Source of the DNA: Clostridiales bacterium
GTDB taxonomy: Bacteria; Bacillota; Sulfobacillia; CADDZV01
Assembly (NCBI GenBank): GCA_902812875.1
Contig: CADDZV010000003.1
Location: 1-64,000, forward strand
Length of the DNA: 64,000 bases
Direction of reading: 5' to 3'
The notes under the pieces were generated by a model. The model saw nothing but the letters and a program-made list of their open reading frames with translations, had not been told where the DNA came from and did not search any database. How positions within the stretch are numbered: position 1 is the stretch's first letter; every line of letters begins with the position of its first letter. A program made the translations under genes and the position numbers. Shown here in pieces: positions 2,198 to 30,435 of the stretch.

Positions 2198-2249
2198 CAG
2201 CACTGGGCCACAGCACTCGGCCACATCGCTGGGCTACAGCACCTGCAGC
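2198..2249. repeat. Imperfect 13-bp tandem repeat between argH and the HD gene
   Basis: Three consecutive 13-base units, CAGCACTGGGCCA, CAGCACTCGGCCA and CATCGCTGGGCTA, are followed by a partial fourth unit beginning CAGCAC. The third unit contains the stop codon of the convergent HD-domain gene. No function is evident. The remaining sequence between argH and this repeat shows no gene and no clear terminator. Confidence 0.6.
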
Positions 2250-2827
2250 CCGTCCGTCTCCGCCGCCAGGGCAGCCAGAAAATCGTCCATCTCTGCCTGC
2301 CGCTTCTTGCCGAGGCGGCGGGCCGCGTCCGTGTGAAGGCGGGCAAATAGCTCACGGCGGAAGCGGTCAATCAACGTGATGGCGGCCGGGAGGTCCGGCG
2401 TCCAGTCGTCACGGCCCACGATCGACAGCAGCCGGGCAATGCCCACGGCCCCCATGAAATCGAGCACATCGGCATCGTGGAAGTACACGGCTTCCGGCAT
2501 GGCAGCCGGCTCCGCGTAGTACATGTGGCCCCGGACGATTTCCTGGACGACCGGAACCCTGGAGTCTGGGAAACCAGCCGCTGCCAGTACTTCCGGTGCC
2601 ACTTCCACCGAACGCTGGGCATGGTCCACACCTTCGCGCCGGTACGGTGGGAAGGCACCCAGGTCGTGCACGTACGCCGCCGCGAAGAGGGCCTCATTGT
2701 CGAGAGCCGCCCCAGCCGCCGTCCCCAGCTGCGCTGCCAGCTCATACACCCGGCGGCAGTGGGCCACTCCCCAAGCGGGGTGCTCAAACCGGGCCGCTTC
2801 TGCCACCAATCGCTCCTGCCATGACAT
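2234..2827 (-). CDS. HD-domain metal-dependent phosphohydrolase, substrate unknown
   Basis: A 197-residue protein of the HD superfamily, close in form to the YpgQ/YedJ-type predicted hydrolases. A conserved His near residue 26 precedes the HD pair at residues 54-55 in AYVHDLGAFPPY, followed by a helical region with EIVRGHMYY and YFHDADVLDFMG, which supplies further metal-ligand candidates. The ATG at 2827 was preferred because GGGGAG sits six bases upstream; an in-frame codon at 2857 would give ten extra residues but has no such site. The gene is convergent with argH and divergent from the yhhQ-queF operon. Nucleotide or phosphoester hydrolysis is a family-level inference. Confidence 0.8.
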   Translation of the reverse strand: MSWQERLVAEAARFEHPAWGVAHCRRVYELAAQLGTAAGAALDNEALFAAAYVHDLGAFPPYRREGVDHAQRSVEVAPEVLAAAGFPDSRVPVVQEIVRGHMYYAEPAAMPEAVYFHDADVLDFMGAVGIARLLSIVGRDDWTPDLPAAITLIDRFRRELFARLHTDAARRLGKKRQAEMDDFLAALAAETDGLQVL

Positions 2828-2868
2828 CAAGAACTCCCCCTCACCTGGCTTTGCCACATAAGTTTGCG

Positions 2869-2936: not shown

Positions 2937-3599
2937 ATGCCGCTTTACCCGGTGCTCGGGGGACTTTTCGTGGCCTTTCTCTTGATCTCCAACATCGTGG
3001 CGGGGAAGCTCATCCTGGTGGGAGGATTGGTACTTCCAGCCGCGGTGGTGCTTTTCCCGGTGACTTACATCTTCGGCGACGTACTCACCGAGGTCTACGG
3101 ATTCAAGCGGTCGCGGCTTATCATCTGGACGGGTTTCGCCGCCAACGTCATCATGGCTCTGGTATTCCAGCTGGTAGTAGCCCTGCCCCACCCGCCGTTT
3201 TGGACCGGGCAGGATGCCTACGCGACGGTGCTTGGTATGGTCCCCCGCATCGTGGTGGCTTCGCTTTTGGCCTATCTGGCCGGCGAATTCTCCAACTCCG
3301 TCGTTCTTTCACGCATGAAGATTCTCACGCGGGGCCGGTGGCTTTTCACGCGTACCATCGGGTCGACCATCGTCGGGGAAGGAGTAGACACCCTCATCTT
3401 CATTACCCTGTCGTTCTACGGACTGGTGCCTGGCCACGTGCTCGGGCAGATGATGGCAGCCCAGTACCTCTGGAAAGTAGCGTACGAGGTCCTGGCCACT
3501 CCGCTGACATACCTGGTGGTGGCGTTGGTAAAGCGGGTCGACCGGGTCGACACGTATGACTACGGTGTCCGCTACAATCCGTTTAGCCTGGAGGTGTGA
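2937..3599 (+). CDS. yhhQ: Queuosine precursor transporter, YhhQ (VUT/DUF165) family
   Basis: A 220-residue integral membrane protein of the YhhQ family, whose characterised members import queuosine precursors such as preQ0 and preQ1. Hydrophobic segments start at about residues 3, 32, 62, 98, 145 and 175, consistent with six helices. Family landmarks include FLLISNIVAGKL near the N-terminus, the loop FGDVLTEVYGFKRSR at about 46-60, and VGEGVDTLIFI near 143. GGGGGTGGG lies just upstream of the ATG. The next gene, queF, starts one base after this stop codon, and this pairing strongly supports a role in preQ0 uptake. YhhQ membership is clear; the exact substrate is inferred from context. Confidence 0.9.
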   Translation: MPLYPVLGGLFVAFLLISNIVAGKLILVGGLVLPAAVVLFPVTYIFGDVLTEVYGFKRSRLIIWTGFAANVIMALVFQLVVALPHPPFWTGQDAYATVLGMVPRIVVASLLAYLAGEFSNSVVLSRMKILTRGRWLFTRTIGSTIVGEGVDTLIFITLSFYGLVPGHVLGQMMAAQYLWKVAYEVLATPLTYLVVALVKRVDRVDTYDYGVRYNPFSLEV

Positions 3600-3600
3600 C

Positions 3601-3993
3601 ATGGCTGACTATCAGTTCGAAGCCCTCGGGCACGAGATACGCGAACCAAGGCGGAAACTGGAGGTTTTCCCTGCTCCGCCGCATGTGACCACGGTGGTGC
3701 TCTCCTCCGACGAAGTCACGAGCCTCTGCCCGGTCACCGGCCAGCCCGACTGGGACACGGTCACCATCGAATACTCCCCTGCCGCCTTCTGCATCGAAAG
3801 CAAAAGTCTCAAGCTGTATCTGTGGAGCTTCCGCAACGAAGGCGTCTTCTGCGAATCGTTCGCGGAGCGCATCGCCCAGGATGTCATGGCCGCCGCCCGG
3901 CCGCACTGGTGCAAGGTGACCGTGACGCAGAAGCCCCGTGGCGGCATCACCATTACCGCCACTGCCATGGTGACGGAGGAGCCGCCGGCATGA
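3601..3993 (+). CDS. queF: NADPH-dependent 7-cyano-7-deazaguanine reductase (preQ0 reductase)
   Basis: Reduces the nitrile of preQ0 to the aminomethyl group of preQ1, the base that tRNA-guanine transglycosylase inserts into tRNA on the way to queuosine. At 130 residues it is the short unimodular (Bacillus-type) form. The nucleophilic cysteine is Cys43 in SLCPVTGQPDW, with the conserved Asp50, followed by the QueF motif ESKSLKLYLWSFRNE at residues 66-80. A GGAGG ribosome site lies within the end of yhhQ. The stop overlaps the next start by 4 bases (ATGA). No other queuosine gene is in the window, so preQ0 is likely supplied by the transporter. Confidence 0.96.
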   Translation: MADYQFEALGHEIREPRRKLEVFPAPPHVTTVVLSSDEVTSLCPVTGQPDWDTVTIEYSPAAFCIESKSLKLYLWSFRNEGVFCESFAERIAQDVMAAARPHWCKVTVTQKPRGGITITATAMVTEEPPA

Positions 3994-6650
3994 AACACTT
4001 CTTTGTGGTCCCCCACACGCACTGGGATCGCGAATGGTACCTGCCCTACCAGGAATTCCGGGCGCGGCTGGTGCGCATGATTGACAAGCTGCTCGCCATC
4101 ATGGAATCGGACGAGGAGTTCCGCTTTTTCGTCCTGGACGGGCAGACGGTGGTACTGGAAGACTACCTCGAGATGAGGCCAGAGAACAAAACTCGCCTGG
4201 AAGCTCTTGCCAAGGCGGGCCGGCTGCTGGTAGGCCCCTGGTACGTGCTGCCAGACGAGTTTCTGGTCACGGGAGAAGCGATCGTCCGCAACTTGCTTTT
4301 GGGCGCCGCCATTGCCCGCGATTACGGCGGCCGCATGCCGGTGGGGTATCTGCCCGACCAGTTCGGGCACATCGCCCAGATGCCGCAAATACTGCAGCTG
4401 GCCGGACTAGAAACCGCCGTGCTGTGGCGCGGCGTGCCTCCCGAGATCACACAGAACGAGTTCCGGTGGGTGGCCCTGGATGGGTCAGAAGTTTTCTGCG
4501 TCTACCTCTCACAAAGTTACTCAAACGGCGTCAACCTCCCGCTCGATCCGGTTGCCCTGGAGTCCCGGCTGGAGGACATCGCCGCCCGCCTGGCGCCGTA
4601 CGACCGTACGGGCCTTTTACTGGTCATGAACGGCTCTGACCACCGCGACCCGCAGGCCGGTCTGCCGCAAGCCCTGGCGGCGGTCAGGCGGCCAGACTGG
4701 CAGTTGGAGATCACGAGCCTGCCAGCCTACGTGGAAAAGGCCCGTGCGGCCAGAGCCGGCACAGACGCTGCCAACACACCCAAGGAAGCCCTGCCGGTGT
4801 GGCGGGGCGAGCTACGCTCGCCGGCGCGGGCCCCGATGCTGGTGGGCGTCAGCTCCACCCGCATTGGCCAGAAGATCCGCCACTTCCGGCTGGCAATTCT
4901 TCTGGAAAAACGGGCAGAGCCGGCCGCGGCGTGGGCTTGGCTCACCGGCAGCCGGTATCCGGCCCAGGAACTCTACCAGGCTTGGAAGTACTTACTCCAA
5001 AACGAGCCACACGACAGCATCTGCGGCTGCAGCGTCGACCAGGTGCACCGGGAGATGGAGACCCGGTTCGATTGGGGCGAGCAGATTGCCGGAATTTTGG
5101 CCCGCACCGCCGAAGAAGAGCTGGCGGCCCGCATAAACCAAGACAGCGCACCGGCTCGTGCGGACGGGCTCGCTGACGATGGGAAGTCCGTTGTCGTCTT
5201 CAACCTCGGCGGTCCCGGCGGGCCGGCCGTGATCGAGGGCATGCTCGCCGCCGCCGAGGCACCCCTGGAAGCCGTCACCCCGTCCGGGACAGTCTTGCCG
5301 GTCCAAGTCGCCACCGCCGCGGGGGCAAGCCCCACCGGCCGCCCGGTGGTCTTGGTAGACCCCGACCTGCCAGCCGGCGGCTTCCGAACCTACCGCCTCC
5401 GCACCGCTCGCGCCGGCAAAAAACCAGCGGCCAGGCCGTTCTTGTCCGTGCGCATCGCACCCGCAGAGCTCGCCAACGAATTCTTTGCTTTGTCGGTCAA
5501 CCCGGACGGATCCCTGCGCCTGACCGACCGGCGCACTGGCGTCGTCTATCCTTCTATCAACCGCTTTGTGGACGGTGGCGACGCCGGGGATGAGTACAAT
5601 TACTCCCCGCCGGCCCGAGATCACCTCGTGATGGCACCCAGTGGCGATCCCCTGTCCGGGTCCAGCGCCGCCGTGCAGGTCACCGTGGTGGAAGACGGGC
5701 CGGTCCGGGCCACGCTAGCGATCTGTCCTCGCTACCGTGTCCCCGCTGGCCTCTCCGAAGACCGCCAGGAGCGGGACCGGGACCATTACGTGGAGCTTCC
5801 CATCATCACACGAGTGAGCTTGTACGCAGGGCTGCCCCGCATTGACTTCGCGACCACCATCGAAAACCGGGCCCGTGACCATCGCTTACGGGTTCATTTC
5901 GATACCCCGTTCACCGTCACGGGCGCCGTCGCGGAAACGCAGTTCGGCGTTGTGGAACGGCCGGTGGCCGAAAACAGCGATGCGGGGTTTGCCGAAGTGC
6001 CCCAGGGCACAAAACCCAGCCAGGGCTTTGTGGACATCAGCGACGGACGGGCGGGCCTCGGCATCATGAGCCGTGGCCTGCCCGAATACGAGGTGGTGCC
6101 CGGAAAAGAAGGCGGATCCGCCTTGGCCTTGACACTTTTGCGCGCCGTCGGGTGGCTTTCCCGCGGCGACCTGGCGGTACGTCGCGGTCATGCCGGTCCG
6201 GGCTACCCCACCCCCGATGCCCAGTGCCTGGGAACCCACACGTTCGAATATGCCGTGCTGCCGCACGCCGGCTCGTGGTTGGAGGCGGACCTGCCGACCA
6301 AGGCCTGGGCCTACAAGGCACCGCCCATACTCCTTGCCCTGCCCTCCCCCCAAGAGGAGAGACCGGGCCCTTTGCCGCCGGAAGGCAGTTTTTTGCGGGT
6401 AACTCCCAGTGCGGTGCAGGTGAGTGCGGTAAAAAAGGCAGAGGCGACCGACGAGCTCATCGTCCGCATCTTCAACGATTCGCCAGCCGCGGTGACGGCT
6501 AGGGTGAACACCATCCTGTCATTGGTGGCGTGGCGGCGGGTCAGCCTGATGGAAGAAGCCACATCCCCGGAAGCCGGCCCGCCGTGCACCCTTACGCTTC
6601 AACCGTGGGAAATCGCCACGCTGGCCCTGGCGCTGTCCGCCGGCCACTAG
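3990..6650 (+). CDS. Glycoside hydrolase family 38 alpha-mannosidase
   Basis: An 886-residue exo-acting alpha-mannosidase of family GH38, similar in size to E. coli mannosylglycerate hydrolase MngB. The N-terminal catalytic barrel opens with HTHWDREWYLPYQEFR, where His11 and Asp13 are probable zinc ligands. The predicted nucleophile is Asp123 in GYLPDQFGHIAQ, and the middle-domain motif NEPHDSICGCS lies near residue 335. The C-terminal half is the beta-rich GH38 region. There is no signal peptide, so the enzyme should be cytoplasmic. The start overlaps the queF stop (ATGA), which implies co-translation with a queuosine gene. Candidate substrates include mannosylglycerate, mannosides from glycans, or, speculatively, mannosylated queuosine. 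Confidence 0.93.
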   Translation: MKHFFVVPHTHWDREWYLPYQEFRARLVRMIDKLLAIMESDEEFRFFVLDGQTVVLEDYLEMRPENKTRLEALAKAGRLLVGPWYVLPDEFLVTGEAIVRNLLLGAAIARDYGGRMPVGYLPDQFGHIAQMPQILQLAGLETAVLWRGVPPEITQNEFRWVALDGSEVFCVYLSQSYSNGVNLPLDPVALESRLEDIAARLAPYDRTGLLLVMNGSDHRDPQAGLPQALAAVRRPDWQLEITSLPAYVEKARAARAGTDAANTPKEALPVWRGELRSPARAPMLVGVSSTRIGQKIRHFRLAILLEKRAEPAAAWAWLTGSRYPAQELYQAWKYLLQNEPHDSICGCSVDQVHREMETRFDWGEQIAGILARTAEEELAARINQDSAPARADGLADDGKSVVVFNLGGPGGPAVIEGMLAAAEAPLEAVTPSGTVLPVQVATAAGASPTGRPVVLVDPDLPAGGFRTYRLRTARAGKKPAARPFLSVRIAPAELANEFFALSVNPDGSLRLTDRRTGVVYPSINRFVDGGDAGDEYNYSPPARDHLVMAPSGDPLSGSSAAVQVTVVEDGPVRATLAICPRYRVPAGLSEDRQERDRDHYVELPIITRVSLYAGLPRIDFATTIENRARDHRLRVHFDTPFTVTGAVAETQFGVVERPVAENSDAGFAEVPQGTKPSQGFVDISDGRAGLGIMSRGLPEYEVVPGKEGGSALALTLLRAVGWLSRGDLAVRRGHAGPGYPTPDAQCLGTHTFEYAVLPHAGSWLEADLPTKAWAYKAPPILLALPSPQEERPGPLPPEGSFLRVTPSAVQVSAVKKAEATDELIVRIFNDSPAAVTARVNTILSLVAWRRVSLMEEATSPEAGPPCTLTLQPWEIATLALALSAGH

Positions 6651-6688: not shown

Positions 6689-7624
6689 CTAGCGACGCGT
6701 GGGTTTCAGCTCGACGTAAGTCCGCGGCTTTTCCACCGGCTCGTCCATGTCGCCGGTCATATACACAAAGGTGGCGTTCGGGTTGTCGGAGAAAGCCGCC
6801 GGCTCGCCGTGGCGGTCCAAGGCCACGATGTTCATGCCGCCGAAATACTCATCCACCAAATCCTCAAGGTCGTTCATGGCCCGGATGCCCGCCTCCTGGA
6901 TCCCGAGCCCAGCCTTCAGGTACATGACCACACTGTGGGCGGTGGCCGCCCGGATCGCCATCTCGCCACGTCCCGTGCAGGCGGCCCCACCGTAGCGACT
7001 GTCGCAGTAATTGCCAGCCCCGATCACCGGCGAGTCGCCCAGCCGTCCAGGATACTTCCATGCCCAGCCGCTGGTGCTGACGCCACAAGCCATATGCCCG
7101 TGGTCGTCCAAGGCAATGAAGTTCACGGTGCCGTGGGCCTTTTCGGGATCCTTGGCCATGGCCGCAAGCTTACGCATGCGCTCCAGATAACGCACGCGCT
7201 CCGGGGCAGAATAAAAATCGGAGTCCACAAAGCCCCTGGCCCAGATCTCCTTGGCCTCGGGTGTCAGCAGGTCAGTCGGCTCGAAACCCATCTCTTTGGC
7301 GAAACGTTCCGCCCCCGGGCCGACCAGGAATACATGCGGCAGTTCCTCCATCACGCGGCGGGCGATGGAGATCGGGTGTTCAAAACCGTGCACTGCTCCC
7401 ACCGCACCGGCCGCCAGGGTGTCGCCATCCATGATGCTGGCGTCAAGCTCCACTTCACCCGCCAGGTTGGGCAGGCCGCCCTTGCCGACGCTGTGGTCTT
7501 CCAGATTCGATTCCACCAGCCGGATGCCCGCCTCCACCGCGTCGATCGGGCTGCCGCCCTTTTTCATGACTTCGATTGCCGCTTTGATGCCCACCCGCCC
7601 ATTGGCGGACGCGACGACGATCAT
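6689..7624 (-). CDS. N4-(beta-N-acetylglucosaminyl)-asparaginase / isoaspartyl peptidase family Ntn hydrolase
   Basis: A member of asparaginase family 2, enzymes that cut their own chain to expose an N-terminal threonine. The probable cleavage site and nucleophile lie in HGTVNFIALDDHG (near residue 165), followed by the substrate-binding block SGWAWKYPGRLGDSPVIGAGNYCD and the GGAACTGRGE loop, all typical of the glycosylasparaginase branch. The ATG at 7624 has GGAGGG six bases upstream and was chosen over an in-frame ATG seven codons earlier. The 311-residue product has no signal peptide. It starts 33 bases after the ABC permease gene and may be co-transcribed with it. Whether it acts on glycoasparagine, isoaspartyl peptides or asparagine cannot be decided here. 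Confidence 0.88.
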   Translation of the reverse strand: MIVVASANGRVGIKAAIEVMKKGGSPIDAVEAGIRLVESNLEDHSVGKGGLPNLAGEVELDASIMDGDTLAAGAVGAVHGFEHPISIARRVMEELPHVFLVGPGAERFAKEMGFEPTDLLTPEAKEIWARGFVDSDFYSAPERVRYLERMRKLAAMAKDPEKAHGTVNFIALDDHGHMACGVSTSGWAWKYPGRLGDSPVIGAGNYCDSRYGGAACTGRGEMAIRAATAHSVVMYLKAGLGIQEAGIRAMNDLEDLVDEYFGGMNIVALDRHGEPAAFSDNPNATFVYMTGDMDEPVEKPRTYVELKPTRR

Positions 7625-7657
7625 CTCATGCCCTCCCCGGACCAAATTGGTACGCAG

Positions 7658-18729: not shown

Positions 18730-19485
18730 ATGCTCGCCAAGGACATTCTCCCCATCCCCGATATCTTGTCAGCACGGTCAGTTCTGGTCATACAGCCTCA
18801 TCCGGACGATGCCGACATCGGCGCCGGCGGCACCATCGCCCGGCTGGCCAAGGCCGGTGCCACGGTCAGCCTCGTGACCATGACGGACGGCAGCCGCGGC
18901 ACCATGGACCCCGCCCAGTCCATGGAAACACTGGCCAGAACGCGGCGCCAGGAACAGGAAGACGCCGCCCGGGCCGTCGGTGTAAAAGAGCTTTTGTTCC
19001 TCGACTACCCGGACGGTGAGTTGCCGGCCGGTTCCGAGCCGCGGGACCGGCTCATCAGCATCATTCGCCGGTACCGGCCAGACCTCGTGATGACTGTTGA
19101 CCCGTGGTTGGCGTATGAAGCACACCCTGATCACCGCCTGACCGGCCTGGCGGTGGCGGCGGCTTGTCTTTTTTCCTCCATGCCCACGTTCAACCCCGAA
19201 GATCTCGCCGCCGGGCTTTCTTTGCACGCCCCCTCTATGGTGGCTTTTTTTGGCACCGCCCACCCAAACCAGTTCGTCGATGTCGACGACACCTGGGAGA
19301 ACAAGCGGGCCGCAATCTCAGCCCATGCCAGCCAGTTTTCGGGACAGACGCTCGAGCTCTACCTTTACTACCTTGAACTGAAAGCCAAAGAATTGGCGGC
19401 CGGCCGCGGCCCACAGCGGGTGGAAGCCTTCAAAGTCTTGACACCTACCCACCTTCACTACAACGTGGACGCCCTGGTCTCGTGA
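18730..19485 (+). CDS. PIG-L family N-deacetylase (LmbE-like)
   Basis: A 251-residue zinc-dependent deacetylase of the PIG-L/LmbE family, which removes acetyl groups from N-acetylglucosamine-type sugars or conjugates. The metal motif HPDD is at residues 24-27 (IQPHPDDADIGAGG) and the second histidine pair is in EAHPDHRLTG (His132, His135). GGAAGG precedes the ATG. It is the first of three same-direction genes with a GH4 glycosidase and a BadF-type sugar kinase, so a role in breaking down an N-acetylated disaccharide is likely. BshB-type bacillithiol deacetylase is an alternative but does not fit the context as well. Confidence 0.88.
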   Translation: MLAKDILPIPDILSARSVLVIQPHPDDADIGAGGTIARLAKAGATVSLVTMTDGSRGTMDPAQSMETLARTRRQEQEDAARAVGVKELLFLDYPDGELPAGSEPRDRLISIIRRYRPDLVMTVDPWLAYEAHPDHRLTGLAVAAACLFSSMPTFNPEDLAAGLSLHAPSMVAFFGTAHPNQFVDVDDTWENKRAAISAHASQFSGQTLELYLYYLELKAKELAAGRGPQRVEAFKVLTPTHLHYNVDALVS

Positions 19486-19516
19486 CCAGAACGACGTCCG
19501 AGGAGGAGATTTTGAC

Positions 19517-20836
19517 ATGCGGGGTCTCAAGATGGTGGTGATCGGGGGCGGCTCGTCATACACCCCTGAGCTCGTAGACGGACTGATACGGTACCGCGAA
19601 CAAATCCCTCTGCGGGAGCTCGTCCTGGTGGACGTGCCCATGGGGGCCGAAAAACTGGCGATCATGACGGCCATGGTAGAGCGTATGTTGGCGGCCAAGG
19701 ACCTCCAGGTGGCGGTTTCGGGTACCATGGACCGCCGCCAGGCGCTGGCCGGCGCCGACGTGGTCATAAGTCAGTTCCGCGTGGGGGGGTTACCCGCCCG
19801 TGCCTTGGACGAGCGCCTGCCCTTGAAGTGGGGCGTCATCGGGCAGGAGACCACAGGGCCAGGCGGTTTTGCCAAGGCCCTGCGGACCATCCCCGTGGCC
19901 CTGCAGATTGCCCATGACGTGGAGGAACTCTGCCCGGACGCCTGGGTGCTGAACTTCACCAATCCATCCGGTGTGGTCACGGAGGCCCTCATGAAACACA
20001 GCCGGGTGAAGACGGTCGGGCTGTGCAACGTACCGCTCAGCATCCAGCGCGGCATTGCCGCTGCCCTGGGCGTGGATCCTGCCCGCGTGGTGCTCGACAT
20101 GGCCGGTCTGAACCACCTTTCCTTTGCCCGCCACGTCTATCTGGATGGCACTGACATCCTCCCCAAGCTTCTCGGCACTGATTTCGTGCGCCAAGAGATC
20201 GTGAAAAATATCGGGGCGCTCGAGTGGGGCGACACCACGCTGCAAGCCCTCGGGATGCTGCCGTCGCCGTACCTGCAGTACTACTACGGCGGTGCCGCGA
20301 AAGTGGAAGAAGAAAAGCAGGCGATCGCACAGGGCCGGGGTACGAGGGCGGATGAGGTGATGCGCGTGGAAGCCGAACTTTTCAAGCTCTACCGGGATCC
20401 GGCCACCATCGAAAAACCGGCCCTTTTAGGCAAGCGGGGAGGAGCGTTTTATTCCGAGGCTGCCCTGGGGGCGCTCGCCAGCATATTGCAAAACCGCCGC
20501 GAGGTACACATCGTGAATACCAGAAATGGCTCTTGCCTGCCAGACCTGGGTCCCGACGTGGTGGTGGAAGTGCCGTGCGTGCTGGATGCCACGGGCGCCC
20601 ACCCGTTGACCCAAGGCCCTCTGCCGACGGCCGTGCGCGGGCTTGTGCAGCAGGTGAAAGCATATGAAGAGCTGACCATCGAAGCGGCGGTCACGGGTAA
20701 CCGGCACACCGCCTTCCTGGCCTTGTTGAACCACCCGCTCGTGCCAGGTGCCCAGGCGGCGGCAGGATTACTCCAAGACATCCTCGCTTTCCACCGGGAG
20801 TACCTGCCACAATTCTTCCCGGCTTCACAAAGCTGA
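19517..20836 (+). CDS. GH4 6-phospho-glycosidase (6-phospho-beta-glucosidase type)
   Basis: A 439-residue family GH4 enzyme, which cleaves phosphorylated disaccharides by a redox mechanism needing NAD and Mn2+. The dinucleotide site is VVIGGGSSYTPELVDG (residues 7-22). Metal ligands Cys170 (VGLCNVP) and His200 (GLNHLSF) are present, together with NFTNPSGVVTEA at 146-157. The ATG follows GAGGAGGAG. Lying between a deacetylase and a glucosamine/GlcNAc-type kinase suggests a chitobiose- or muropeptide-derived phosphosugar as substrate, comparable to ChbF of E. coli, but no PTS or ABC importer is encoded here. Confidence 0.92.
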   Translation: MRGLKMVVIGGGSSYTPELVDGLIRYREQIPLRELVLVDVPMGAEKLAIMTAMVERMLAAKDLQVAVSGTMDRRQALAGADVVISQFRVGGLPARALDERLPLKWGVIGQETTGPGGFAKALRTIPVALQIAHDVEELCPDAWVLNFTNPSGVVTEALMKHSRVKTVGLCNVPLSIQRGIAAALGVDPARVVLDMAGLNHLSFARHVYLDGTDILPKLLGTDFVRQEIVKNIGALEWGDTTLQALGMLPSPYLQYYYGGAAKVEEEKQAIAQGRGTRADEVMRVEAELFKLYRDPATIEKPALLGKRGGAFYSEAALGALASILQNRREVHIVNTRNGSCLPDLGPDVVVEVPCVLDATGAHPLTQGPLPTAVRGLVQQVKAYEELTIEAAVTGNRHTAFLALLNHPLVPGAQAAAGLLQDILAFHREYLPQFFPASQS

Positions 20837-27570: not shown

Positions 27571-29864
27571 GAACTGTTCTGCCGCCGGATGGCCATGAAC
27601 ACGCGTTCCGGCGTAAGAGGCGTCTCGTAGATCCGCACACCCGTTGCCTGGTAGACAGCGTTGGCGATGGCCGCCAGCGTCGGGCACGTAGGTGGTTCTC
27701 CTACGCCTTTCACGCCGTACGGCCCCTGCGTGCTGGGCTTTTCCAGGATGATGCTTTCCACTGCCGGCACGTCCGTCGCGGTCGGCAGTTTGTAGTCCGC
27801 GAAATTCGGATTCACGAGCTTGCCGCCTTGCCAGACCATTTCCTCGTAGAGGGCCTGTCCGATCGCTTGTACCATGCCACCTTCGATCTGGCCCTCAATC
27901 CCCTGCGGGTTGATGGCACGTCCGACATCCTGCGCTGCCACTGCCCGCAGGAGCGTCACCTGGCCGGTTTCCATATCCACTTCTACTTCCACGGCCTGGG
28001 CAAAGTAGGCGGGGTCGTTGAAGGCCCCCGAAGCGTCCCCCCGGACGCGCGTGCGGTCGTAACCGGGGCGCGGATACACAAAGCTGCCCCGACCGACCGG
28101 CGGCCCGCTGTACCGGTACATGACCCTTGCCAGTTCCCGGAAGCCAAGCCGCTTTTGGGGGTCGGCCTGTACGTAGACGGACTGGTCGCCAAACGCGAGT
28201 CCATCCGGCGAAACACCAAGACGCTTCGCCGCTTCGTCTTTCAGCATACCGGCCAAGTCGACCGCCGCCGCCCGGGCAGCACCCCCGAGGTTGTAGGTAA
28301 TCCGGCTGCCCCACGACCCCACGTCGTACGGTCCGGTGCTGGTATCACCGTGGGCTACCACCACCTGCGAAGGGTGCAGGTTGAGCTCCTTGGCGACAAT
28401 GGCCGGCAGGCTCGCGTACACCGATCCGCTACCGAGCTCCATGCCGGTCGTCTGAACGGCGACGGTGCCGTCGTCGTTCAACTTGACCGTCACCGTGGAC
28501 GCCCCGGTGCCGGTAAACCACCAGCCCACGGCCACGCCCACACCCCGTCGGCGGGTGCCCGTGGAGCCGGCCGCCGCCGCGTTCGGGTCGGATGGCCATC
28601 CGATCGCCTTTGCCGCCGCCTCGAGGCACTCCTTCACACTGACGCTCTGCATGACCTGGCCGGTGGGCGACCGGTCGCCGTCCACCCAGGCGTTTTTCAG
28701 CCGGAAAGCCACCGGATCCATGCCGAGGGCCCTGGCACAGCTGTCCATGTGCGACTCGACCGCGAAATCGGCCTGCGGACCGCCCGGCCCCCGGAAGGAA
28801 CCGCAACTCGACTTGTTGGTCAGCACGCTGTAGCCTTCCACCTTGACCGCCCCGATGCGATACGGCCCCGTCGAAAGAAGGGCTGCCACGCCAATGGCGG
28901 AACCACCCGGGTAGGCGCCCGTGTCCATGATCATCCGTACGTGGCGGCCAAGAATGGTCCCGTCTTTCTTGAGGGCAGAGCGGATATAGGTGATCGACGG
29001 ATGGCGCGGATTTCCGACGAGGAACTCTTCCTCGCGCGTGTTCGCAAGCCGCACCGGGCGCCCGCTTTTGCGGGCCAAAAGGCACACGATGGGCTCCAGC
29101 TCGCTGCCAGTCTTGCCGCCAAAAGCGCCGCCGGGGAACGGCCCGTGCACGATGACCCGGGTCTGCGGCTCCTTGAGCACGATGGCGACGTCGGCCCGCA
29201 CAGCATGCACAGACTGCGTACTTGTCCATATCTCATACCCGCGACCGGGGTGCCACTGCGCGACCGCGATACGCGGCTCGATGTAGGCCTGGTGCACCAT
29301 CTGGGTACGGTAGGTTTCCTCGACGATAACGTCGGCCTCGGCAAAGGCGGATTCGATGTCGCCATCCTCAATACCGGCAAACACCGCCACGTTGGGCGAC
29401 AGGCCGGCCGTTTCGCCCTCCGGCTGCGCGGCCGCGGCGGCGGTATCGCCCACCAACGGGGCGCCAGGTGCCATCGCCTCTTCGGGGTCGAACACTGCCG
29501 GCAGAGGCTCGTACTCTACTTCGATGAGGGCAAGGGCTGCCGCCGCCTGCTCGGCAGTGCGGGCTGCCACCGCCGCCACCGCGTCGCCAGCGTACCTCAC
29601 CTTGTGCGACGCCAATACCCCCACACCAAGCACCGGGTCCGGCAGGTCATCAGCCGTCACGACCGCCTCCACACCCGGCGCCTTGGCCGCCTTTGAGACG
29701 TCGATCCGCTTGATCAGGGCATGCGGCACCATCGCCCGCAGGACCCGGGCGTGGAGCATACCCGGCAATTTGACATCCCATGTAAACAGGGCCTTTCCCT
29801 GTACCTTGTCGATGAGGTCCTGGCGGACCCATTGGGGGCCGAAGCGTTCCACCGTACTAGCCAT
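27567..29864 (-). CDS. Xanthine dehydrogenase-family molybdopterin-binding (large) subunit
   Basis: A 765-residue large subunit of a molybdenum hydroxylase. Molybdopterin-contact motifs include GPFPGGAFGGKTG (about residues 232-244), SSCGSFRGPGGPQ near 350, which corresponds to the FRGFGGPQ loop of xanthine dehydrogenase rather than the AYxCSFR loop of CO dehydrogenase, and GMELGSGSVYAS. The catalytic glutamate is in GVGEPPTCP near the C-terminus. The ATG at 29864 follows GGAAGGGGAC and overlaps the 2Fe-2S gene by eight bases. With the small and FAD subunits it forms an L-M-S hydroxylase; the substrate (a purine, nicotinate or other heterocycle or aldehyde) cannot be fixed from sequence. Confidence 0.94.
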   Translation of the reverse strand: MASTVERFGPQWVRQDLIDKVQGKALFTWDVKLPGMLHARVLRAMVPHALIKRIDVSKAAKAPGVEAVVTADDLPDPVLGVGVLASHKVRYAGDAVAAVAARTAEQAAAALALIEVEYEPLPAVFDPEEAMAPGAPLVGDTAAAAAQPEGETAGLSPNVAVFAGIEDGDIESAFAEADVIVEETYRTQMVHQAYIEPRIAVAQWHPGRGYEIWTSTQSVHAVRADVAIVLKEPQTRVIVHGPFPGGAFGGKTGSELEPIVCLLARKSGRPVRLANTREEEFLVGNPRHPSITYIRSALKKDGTILGRHVRMIMDTGAYPGGSAIGVAALLSTGPYRIGAVKVEGYSVLTNKSSCGSFRGPGGPQADFAVESHMDSCARALGMDPVAFRLKNAWVDGDRSPTGQVMQSVSVKECLEAAAKAIGWPSDPNAAAAGSTGTRRRGVGVAVGWWFTGTGASTVTVKLNDDGTVAVQTTGMELGSGSVYASLPAIVAKELNLHPSQVVVAHGDTSTGPYDVGSWGSRITYNLGGAARAAAVDLAGMLKDEAAKRLGVSPDGLAFGDQSVYVQADPQKRLGFRELARVMYRYSGPPVGRGSFVYPRPGYDRTRVRGDASGAFNDPAYFAQAVEVEVDMETGQVTLLRAVAAQDVGRAINPQGIEGQIEGGMVQAIGQALYEEMVWQGGKLVNPNFADYKLPTATDVPAVESIILEKPSTQGPYGVKGVGEPPTCPTLAAIANAVYQATGVRIYETPLTPERVFMAIRRQNSS

Positions 29865-30435
29865 GTGCACCGTCCCCTTCCGGAGCCTCCCCGCGGTGAT
29901 CCACAACCACCCGCTCGCTTGGCGTGTCACCGGCCGTGGCCACCGGTGCCAACGCCGTAATCGTGCTGGCCGCCATGGCTTCGGCGGCGTGTTTCACTGC
30001 CGCCACGATCTTCCCGTAACCGGTGCACCGGCAAAGGTTGCCCGCCAGGGCGGTCCTGATCTCGCCCTCGGAGGGATGCGGATTATTGTCCAGCAGGGCC
30101 TTGGCCGACATCAACATTCCGGGCGTGCAAAAACCGCATTGCGCAGCCCCGTGTTCAAGGAAGGCCTCTTGCAGCACATGCAGGCCCTGCTCGTCGGCCA
30201 AGCCTTCCACGGTTTCGATGTGCCCGCCGTCGGCCTCCACGGCTAACACCAGGCACGACGACACCGGCCGGCCATCCCACAGAACGGTACACGCCCCGCA
30301 GTCGCCGGCATCGCAGCCTTCCTTGGTGCCGGTGAGTGCAAGATCGTCCCGCAGCACCTGCAAAAGGGTGCGGGTGGGTTCCACATCAACCTTGTATTCA
30401 CGCCTGTTTACGGTCAGGGTAATCTCTATGCTCAT
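29857..30435 (-). CDS. Molybdenum hydroxylase 2Fe-2S (small) subunit
   Basis: A 192-residue CoxS/XdhC-type iron-sulfur subunit that passes electrons from the Mo centre to FAD. The plant-ferredoxin cluster cysteines lie in CDAGDCGACTVLWDGRPVSSC (about residues 42-62) and the second cluster in CGFCTPGM and CRCTGYGKI. The protein is about 30 residues longer than usual at the C-terminus (GDTPSERVVVDHRGEAPEG), a tail of unknown use. The ATG overlaps the FAD-subunit stop (ATGA). Third structural gene in reading order of the hydroxylase operon. Confidence 0.95.
   Translation of the reverse strand: MSIEITLTVNRREYKVDVEPTRTLLQVLRDDLALTGTKEGCDAGDCGACTVLWDGRPVSSCLVLAVEADGGHIETVEGLADEQGLHVLQEAFLEHGAAQCGFCTPGMLMSAKALLDNNPHPSEGEIRTALAGNLCRCTGYGKIVAAVKHAAEAMAASTITALAPVATAGDTPSERVVVDHRGEAPEGDGAHG

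Follow-up and report, generated by a model that had tools for sequence, protein, structure and literature searches.

In the 64,000-nt stretch of contig CADDZV010000003.1 (Clostridiales bacterium) analysed here, which we refer to as the window, a gene for a GH38 alpha-mannosidase directly follows yhhQ and queF, two genes for the salvage of queuosine precursors. This arrangement raises the question why a mannosidase gene should be situated at the end of a queuosine operon. The first-pass annotation of this DNA had proposed that the enzyme could cleave mannose off a mannosylated precursor of queuosine taken up from the surroundings, and had named chance membership of the operon, for example for mannosylglycerate breakdown, as the simpler view. 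In our view the protein very probably serves the breakdown of mannosides as an ordinary alpha-mannosidase of the cytoplasm, its gene having come to a preQ0-salvage operon through a rearrangement in this lineage. Since the linkage did not recur in the genomes sampled and the nearest GH38 genes are found beside mannose-catabolism genes, the gene looks like that of an ordinary sugar enzyme joined to the operon by rearrangement.

Gene order and the GH38 enzyme

The features of the locus are as follows.

2234-2857, minus strand: gene for an HD-domain phosphohydrolase (PF01966, 43.8 bits), the divergent upstream neighbour bounding the operon
2937-3599, plus strand: yhhQ, coding for a COG1738/QPTR queuosine-precursor transporter of 220 aa (PF02592, 182.3 bits; TIGR00697)
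3590-3594, plus strand: GGAGG within the end of yhhQ, a Shine-Dalgarno-like stretch presumably serving queF
3601-3993, plus strand: queF, coding for a type II (unimodular) preQ0 reductase of 130 aa (TIGR03139, PF14489)
3975-3981, plus strand: GGAGGAG within the end of queF, a Shine-Dalgarno-like stretch putatively serving the GH38 gene
3990-6650, plus strand: GH38 alpha-mannosidase gene, 886 aa (four GH38 Pfam domains; PDB matches 3lvt, 5kbp and 2wyh)
6689-7645, minus strand: gene for an asparaginase of the N-terminal nucleophile (Ntn) type (PF01112, 237.6 bits), the convergent downstream neighbour bounding the operon

The reading frame of the third gene is open across 886 codons, and its product contains the domains PF01074 (128.3 bits), PF07748 (70.6 bits), PF17677 (41.9 bits), and PF09261 (39.8 bits), all above cut-off. 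Four GH38 motifs were identified: HTHWDREW (from residue 9), PDQFGH (122), MNGSDHR (213), and EPHDSIC (339). From motif comparison and PDB alignments, H11, D13, D123 (also the nucleophile), and H341 are predicted to be the zinc ligands and D217 the acid/base. The best PDB match was the bacterial GH38 enzyme 3lvt/5kbp, which aligned over both halves with 375.6 bits, yet is distant in sequence. A further match, 2wyh, we take from the paper title and the PDB match to be SpGH38 (Spy1604, PDB 2wyh/2wyi) of Streptococcus pyogenes. The residues H11, D13, D123, H341, and D217 correspond to H13, D15, D125, H351, and D232 of SpGH38, respectively, as given in passages of PMC2815779; for D217 and H341 the roles are presumed by motif alignment. 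SpGH38 shares the family, the domain set, and the active-site motifs and likewise has no leader. Its gene, however, is grouped with GH84 and GH1 genes in an operon for glycan degradation (PMC2815779), whereas the GH38 gene of the window lies with queuosine genes. Inspection by eye revealed no leader peptide in the window protein, and because no leader stands ahead of the catalytic motif beginning at residue 9 the enzyme is most likely cytoplasmic, in agreement with the first-pass annotation. We predict that the third gene codes for a metal-dependent, retaining alpha-mannosidase of family GH38.

All three genes are arranged head-to-tail on the plus strand. The yhhQ stop codon ends at 3599 and the queF ATG starts at 3601, leaving a 1-nt gap, and the queF stop codon (ending at 3993) and the GH38 ATG (3990) overlap in the sequence ATGA. 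YhhQ reached 139.6 bits in the equivalog model TIGR00697 (cut-off 50.95) and QueF 109.5 bits in TIGR03139 (cut-off 86.9). The YhhQ, QueF, and GH38 families each had a single match in the whole genome (1.85 Mb, 88 contigs, 96% completeness). The gene order, coordinates, junctions, and identities given in the first-pass annotation were all borne out (sequence, Pfam, NCBIfam), and the head-to-tail genes and tight junctions support its placing of the mannosidase in the queuosine-precursor operon. As the Shine-Dalgarno-like stretches are situated inside the preceding frames, translational coupling across yhhQ, queF, and the GH38 gene is plausible. With a divergent gene upstream and a convergent one downstream, the cotranscribed unit probably consists of just these three genes.

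An artefactual junction through chimeric assembly is unlikely: the two genes show an exact, in-frame overlap, across which both G+C content and G+C content at third codon positions (GC3) are uniform. With a G+C of 0.657 and a GC3 of 0.780 the GH38 gene matches its neighbouring genes, and its base composition shows no sign of recent foreign origin. No sigma-70-like promoter was detected between 2800 and 6800 (shuffle mean 0.6), and the three terminator-like sites in this region compare with 2.7 expected, neither count being informative. In the window no preQ1 riboswitch or other Rfam element was found at gathering threshold, and no tRNA genes were found.

Occurrence of the gene pair and of the GH38 linkage in other genomes

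Genomes of the same class were searched: 154 for QueF over cut-off and for GH38 at E <= 1e-40, and 151 for YhhQ and for GH38 at E <= 1e-3. YhhQ matches were present in 8 of the 151 genomes, two of them weak. YhhQ and QueF were both over cut-off in the window's own genome (G000) and in G034, G036, and G042; in three of these four the two genes are adjacent, and in G034 yhhQ runs off the contig end. The yhhQ-queF part is a real operon structure. The closest pair is that of G036 (68% identity for YhhQ, 76% for QueF), in which queF begins directly after yhhQ and is followed, after a gap, by a cluster of E1 dehydrogenase, 2-oxoacid acyltransferase, and lipoyl synthase-type genes. Between this queF and the dehydrogenase cluster a tRNA-like gene on the minus strand was noticed by eye (L142, 912-1286). 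G034, G036, and G042 gave no GH38 match at E <= 1e-3.

QueF over cut-off was found in 21 of 154 genomes of the class, and GH38 in 43 of 151 at E <= 1e-3 or 15 of 154 at E <= 1e-40. Eight genomes contain QueF over cut-off together with a GH38 match at E <= 1e-3 (G000, G043, G056, G088, G102, G106, G110, and G118), and only in G000 do both lie on one contig; the other seven are fragmented drafts, in which linkage across contig ends is possible on this count. In G043 and G056 queF adjoins a Glu/Gln-type tRNA synthetase gene, apart from GH38.

The search was extended to the best 80 of 589 confirmed public GH38 loci, with flanks of up to 6 kb per side where the contig allowed. Using QueF and YhhQ of the window as tblastn queries, neither gene was found near GH38 at any of the 80 loci, and the QueF and YhhQ profiles likewise gave no match at 93 loci (the 80 public ones and 13 of the class, the public locus L052 carrying the same GH38 as one class locus). 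As a positive control, the same tblastn search was applied to the 20 other class loci with QueF over cut-off and recovered the gene in every one. Among the genomes examined the junction of queF and GH38 was therefore seen only in the window's genome, and the linkage by which a module for the salvage of mannosyl-queuosine (manQ) would be recognized, GH38 with queF or yhhQ elsewhere, was not found. The first-pass annotation had itself named such a lack of recurrence as evidence against its proposal, and within our samples this is the outcome. A literature search yielded no pairing of mannosyl-queuosine with a mannosidase, and no paper title or abstract opening had a linkage of queuosine and mannosidase as its topic. 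A word search of the main text of PMC11130926, which deals with salvage-gene neighbourhoods, found neither 'mannos' nor 'GH38'.

Neighbourhood of the nearest GH38 relatives

In a quick tree with support from the Shimodaira-Hasegawa-like approximate likelihood ratio test (SH-aLRT) the GH38 of the window pairs with that of G056 (63% identity, support 100). Both belong to a clade of 14 rows (support 99), which further comprises G057, G077/G103/G060, and eight public rows from Chloroflexota and Actinomycetota. The five nearest GH38 genes with a visible 5' flank (G056, G057, G077, G103, and G060) all adjoin a gene coding for a fusion of a ROK sugar kinase and a cupin of the mannose-6-phosphate isomerase type, as in the following example.

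L173, 1517-2800, minus strand: ROK kinase-cupin fusion beside GH38 (also in L131, L132, L133, and L134)

The fusion was recognized by Pfam in G056, G060, and G057 (above threshold for ROK only in G057) and by tblastn with the G056 protein in G077, G103, G060, and G057; in G056 it is distributed over two contigs (C181 and C68) that resemble two parts of one gene. In four genomes the fusion gene is divergent from GH38, and in G057 it lies on the same strand, directly abutting the GH38 frame, with the cupin before the kinase. Downstream of GH38 in G056 are genes for an S9 peptidase, a GH1 fragment, and a GntR regulator. The GH38 gene of G043 (69% identity) is cut by the contig start, so that its 5' flank cannot be judged. 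ROK-type matches at E <= 1e-8 occurred in 3 of the 80 public loci (L052, L111, and L092), none of which belongs to the clade; hence the kinase-cupin context marks the nearest relatives within the class and not GH38 at large. Long frames without Pfam matches in the relatives look like spurious frames of G+C-rich DNA and were not interpreted.

Queuosine salvage and the substrate of the mannosidase

On contig C16 of the window's genome the genes for TGT and QueA lie side by side. Of QueC, QueD, QueE, QueG, and QueH the search covered QueC, which was not found in the genome; the single QueC match above cut-off was rejected because it comprises just 61 residues of a protein of the GMP synthase type. 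Salvage of preQ0 or preQ1 by means of YhhQ and QueF is described in parts of PMC5372724 for bacteria lacking queD, queE, and queC. The window's genome is like these in possessing the transporter, the preQ0 reductase, TGT, and QueA while no QueC was found, and differs from them in that its operon ends on the 3' side with an additional GH38 gene. The presence of TGT and QueA and the lack of a convincing QueC point to a preQ0/preQ1 route.

Could the mannosidase nevertheless act on queuosine compounds? It would then strip mannose from a mannosylated queuosine product, the manQ nucleoside or base, imported from outside. The position of its gene behind that of a queuosine-precursor transporter fits such a role, and so does the anomer, as the mannose of manQ is alpha-linked in the account excerpted from PMC12518689. 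According to this account, however, the mannose is attached to the allylic 3-hydroxyl of the cyclopentene ring and manQ is described in animals (PMC12518689). The preQ0 on which QueF acts has no cyclopentene ring, which is added later, on inserted preQ1 (PMC5372724, in part). It follows that a precursor mannosylated as in manQ cannot stand upstream of QueF, and the mannose release proposed in the first-pass annotation is left without support. Moreover, queuosine salvaged by removal of mannose would bypass QueF and QueA and make them needless, but the genome keeps both. Together with the non-recurrence of the linkage and the mannose-catabolism neighbours kept by the nearest GH38 genes, this makes a queuosine-directed mannosidase extremely improbable. 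We regard as just as far-fetched the related proposal that YhhQ of this lineage takes up a glycosylated 7-deazaguanine as well, e.g., mannosylated queuine, from which the coupled GH38 removes the alpha-mannose before use. If true, this would be the first bacterial enzyme or route for salvaging glycosylated queuosine, as far as our literature searches show.

Two sugar-related roles were weighed as well. Degradation of the compatible solute mannosylglycerate or its 6-phosphate is suggested by the best NCBIfam match, the mannosylglycerate hydrolase MngB (NF007331, E = 1e-151), which belongs to the same bacterial GH38 group. However, with 506.7 of 1138 bits the window protein stays well below the curated cut-off, reaching less than half of it, and the kinase-isomerase neighbours of its relatives suggest free mannose as the product and not mannose-6-phosphate. 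We hold this substrate to be improbable; of the simpler view in the first-pass annotation, the part that a sugar enzyme came into the operon by chance is better supported than the manQ proposal, whereas its mannosylglycerate example is not sustained. Somewhat less improbable, though still unlikely, is that GH38 and the convergent gene at 6689-7645 (minus strand) scavenge N-glycans or glyco-asparagine. The neighbour has glycosylasparaginase 1p4k as its best PDB match (161.5 bits; the best isoaspartyl peptidase reached 133.9), and the S. pyogenes GH38 cleaves alpha-1,3 mannose off N-glycans, as passages of PMC2815779 state, and is thought to be intracellular. Against this, the convergent orientation means that the asparaginase gene does not form one operon with GH38, and a relative of it was found at none of 174 other loci searched, some of them without GH38. 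The end of the asparaginase gene lies 39 nt from the end of the GH38 gene, and glycoprotein scavenging may be kept as a weak lead.

Several observations also count against a rearranged mannoside-catabolism gene. The tight ATGA junction is what functionally linked genes show. Taken from one genome alone, an overlap of 4 nt is weak evidence for shared function. The sample contained no genome of the organism's own family or order, so that the age and conservation of the arrangement cannot be read from it, and most genomes examined were fragmented drafts. In the flanks of the clade's eight public rows no kinase-isomerase match reached E <= 1e-8, and the context is thus not universal in the clade. 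A relative of the kinase-isomerase cupin was not found in the window's genome in a search that had no positive control. The mannose route may therefore be incomplete here, though ROK kinases are present: three matches were obtained, of which two, at the end of contig C12 (L178) and the start of contig C6 (L179), may be parts of a single ROK gene seemingly split between these contigs.

Elsewhere in the window, genes for a PIG-L-type deacetylase and then a GH4 glycosidase lie at 18730-20833 (plus strand), perhaps a pair for amino-sugar disaccharides, and a gene at 28000-29930 (minus strand) encodes a molybdopterin-binding subunit of the xanthine dehydrogenase/aldehyde oxidase type.

If the GH38 gene indeed belongs to mannoside catabolism, a single transcript would carry two independent functions. 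YhhQ would import preQ0 and QueF would reduce it to preQ1, the substrate from which TGT and QueA, whose genes lie together elsewhere in the genome, would make queuosine in tRNA. Within the cytoplasm, the mannosidase would cleave an imported alpha-mannoside or manno-oligosaccharide and supply the freed mannose to catabolism; its gene presumably became the last of the operon via a rearrangement in this lineage. The locus contributes a further genome with preQ0 salvage and a further GH38 enzyme, the nearest relatives of which are tied to mannose kinase-isomerase genes.

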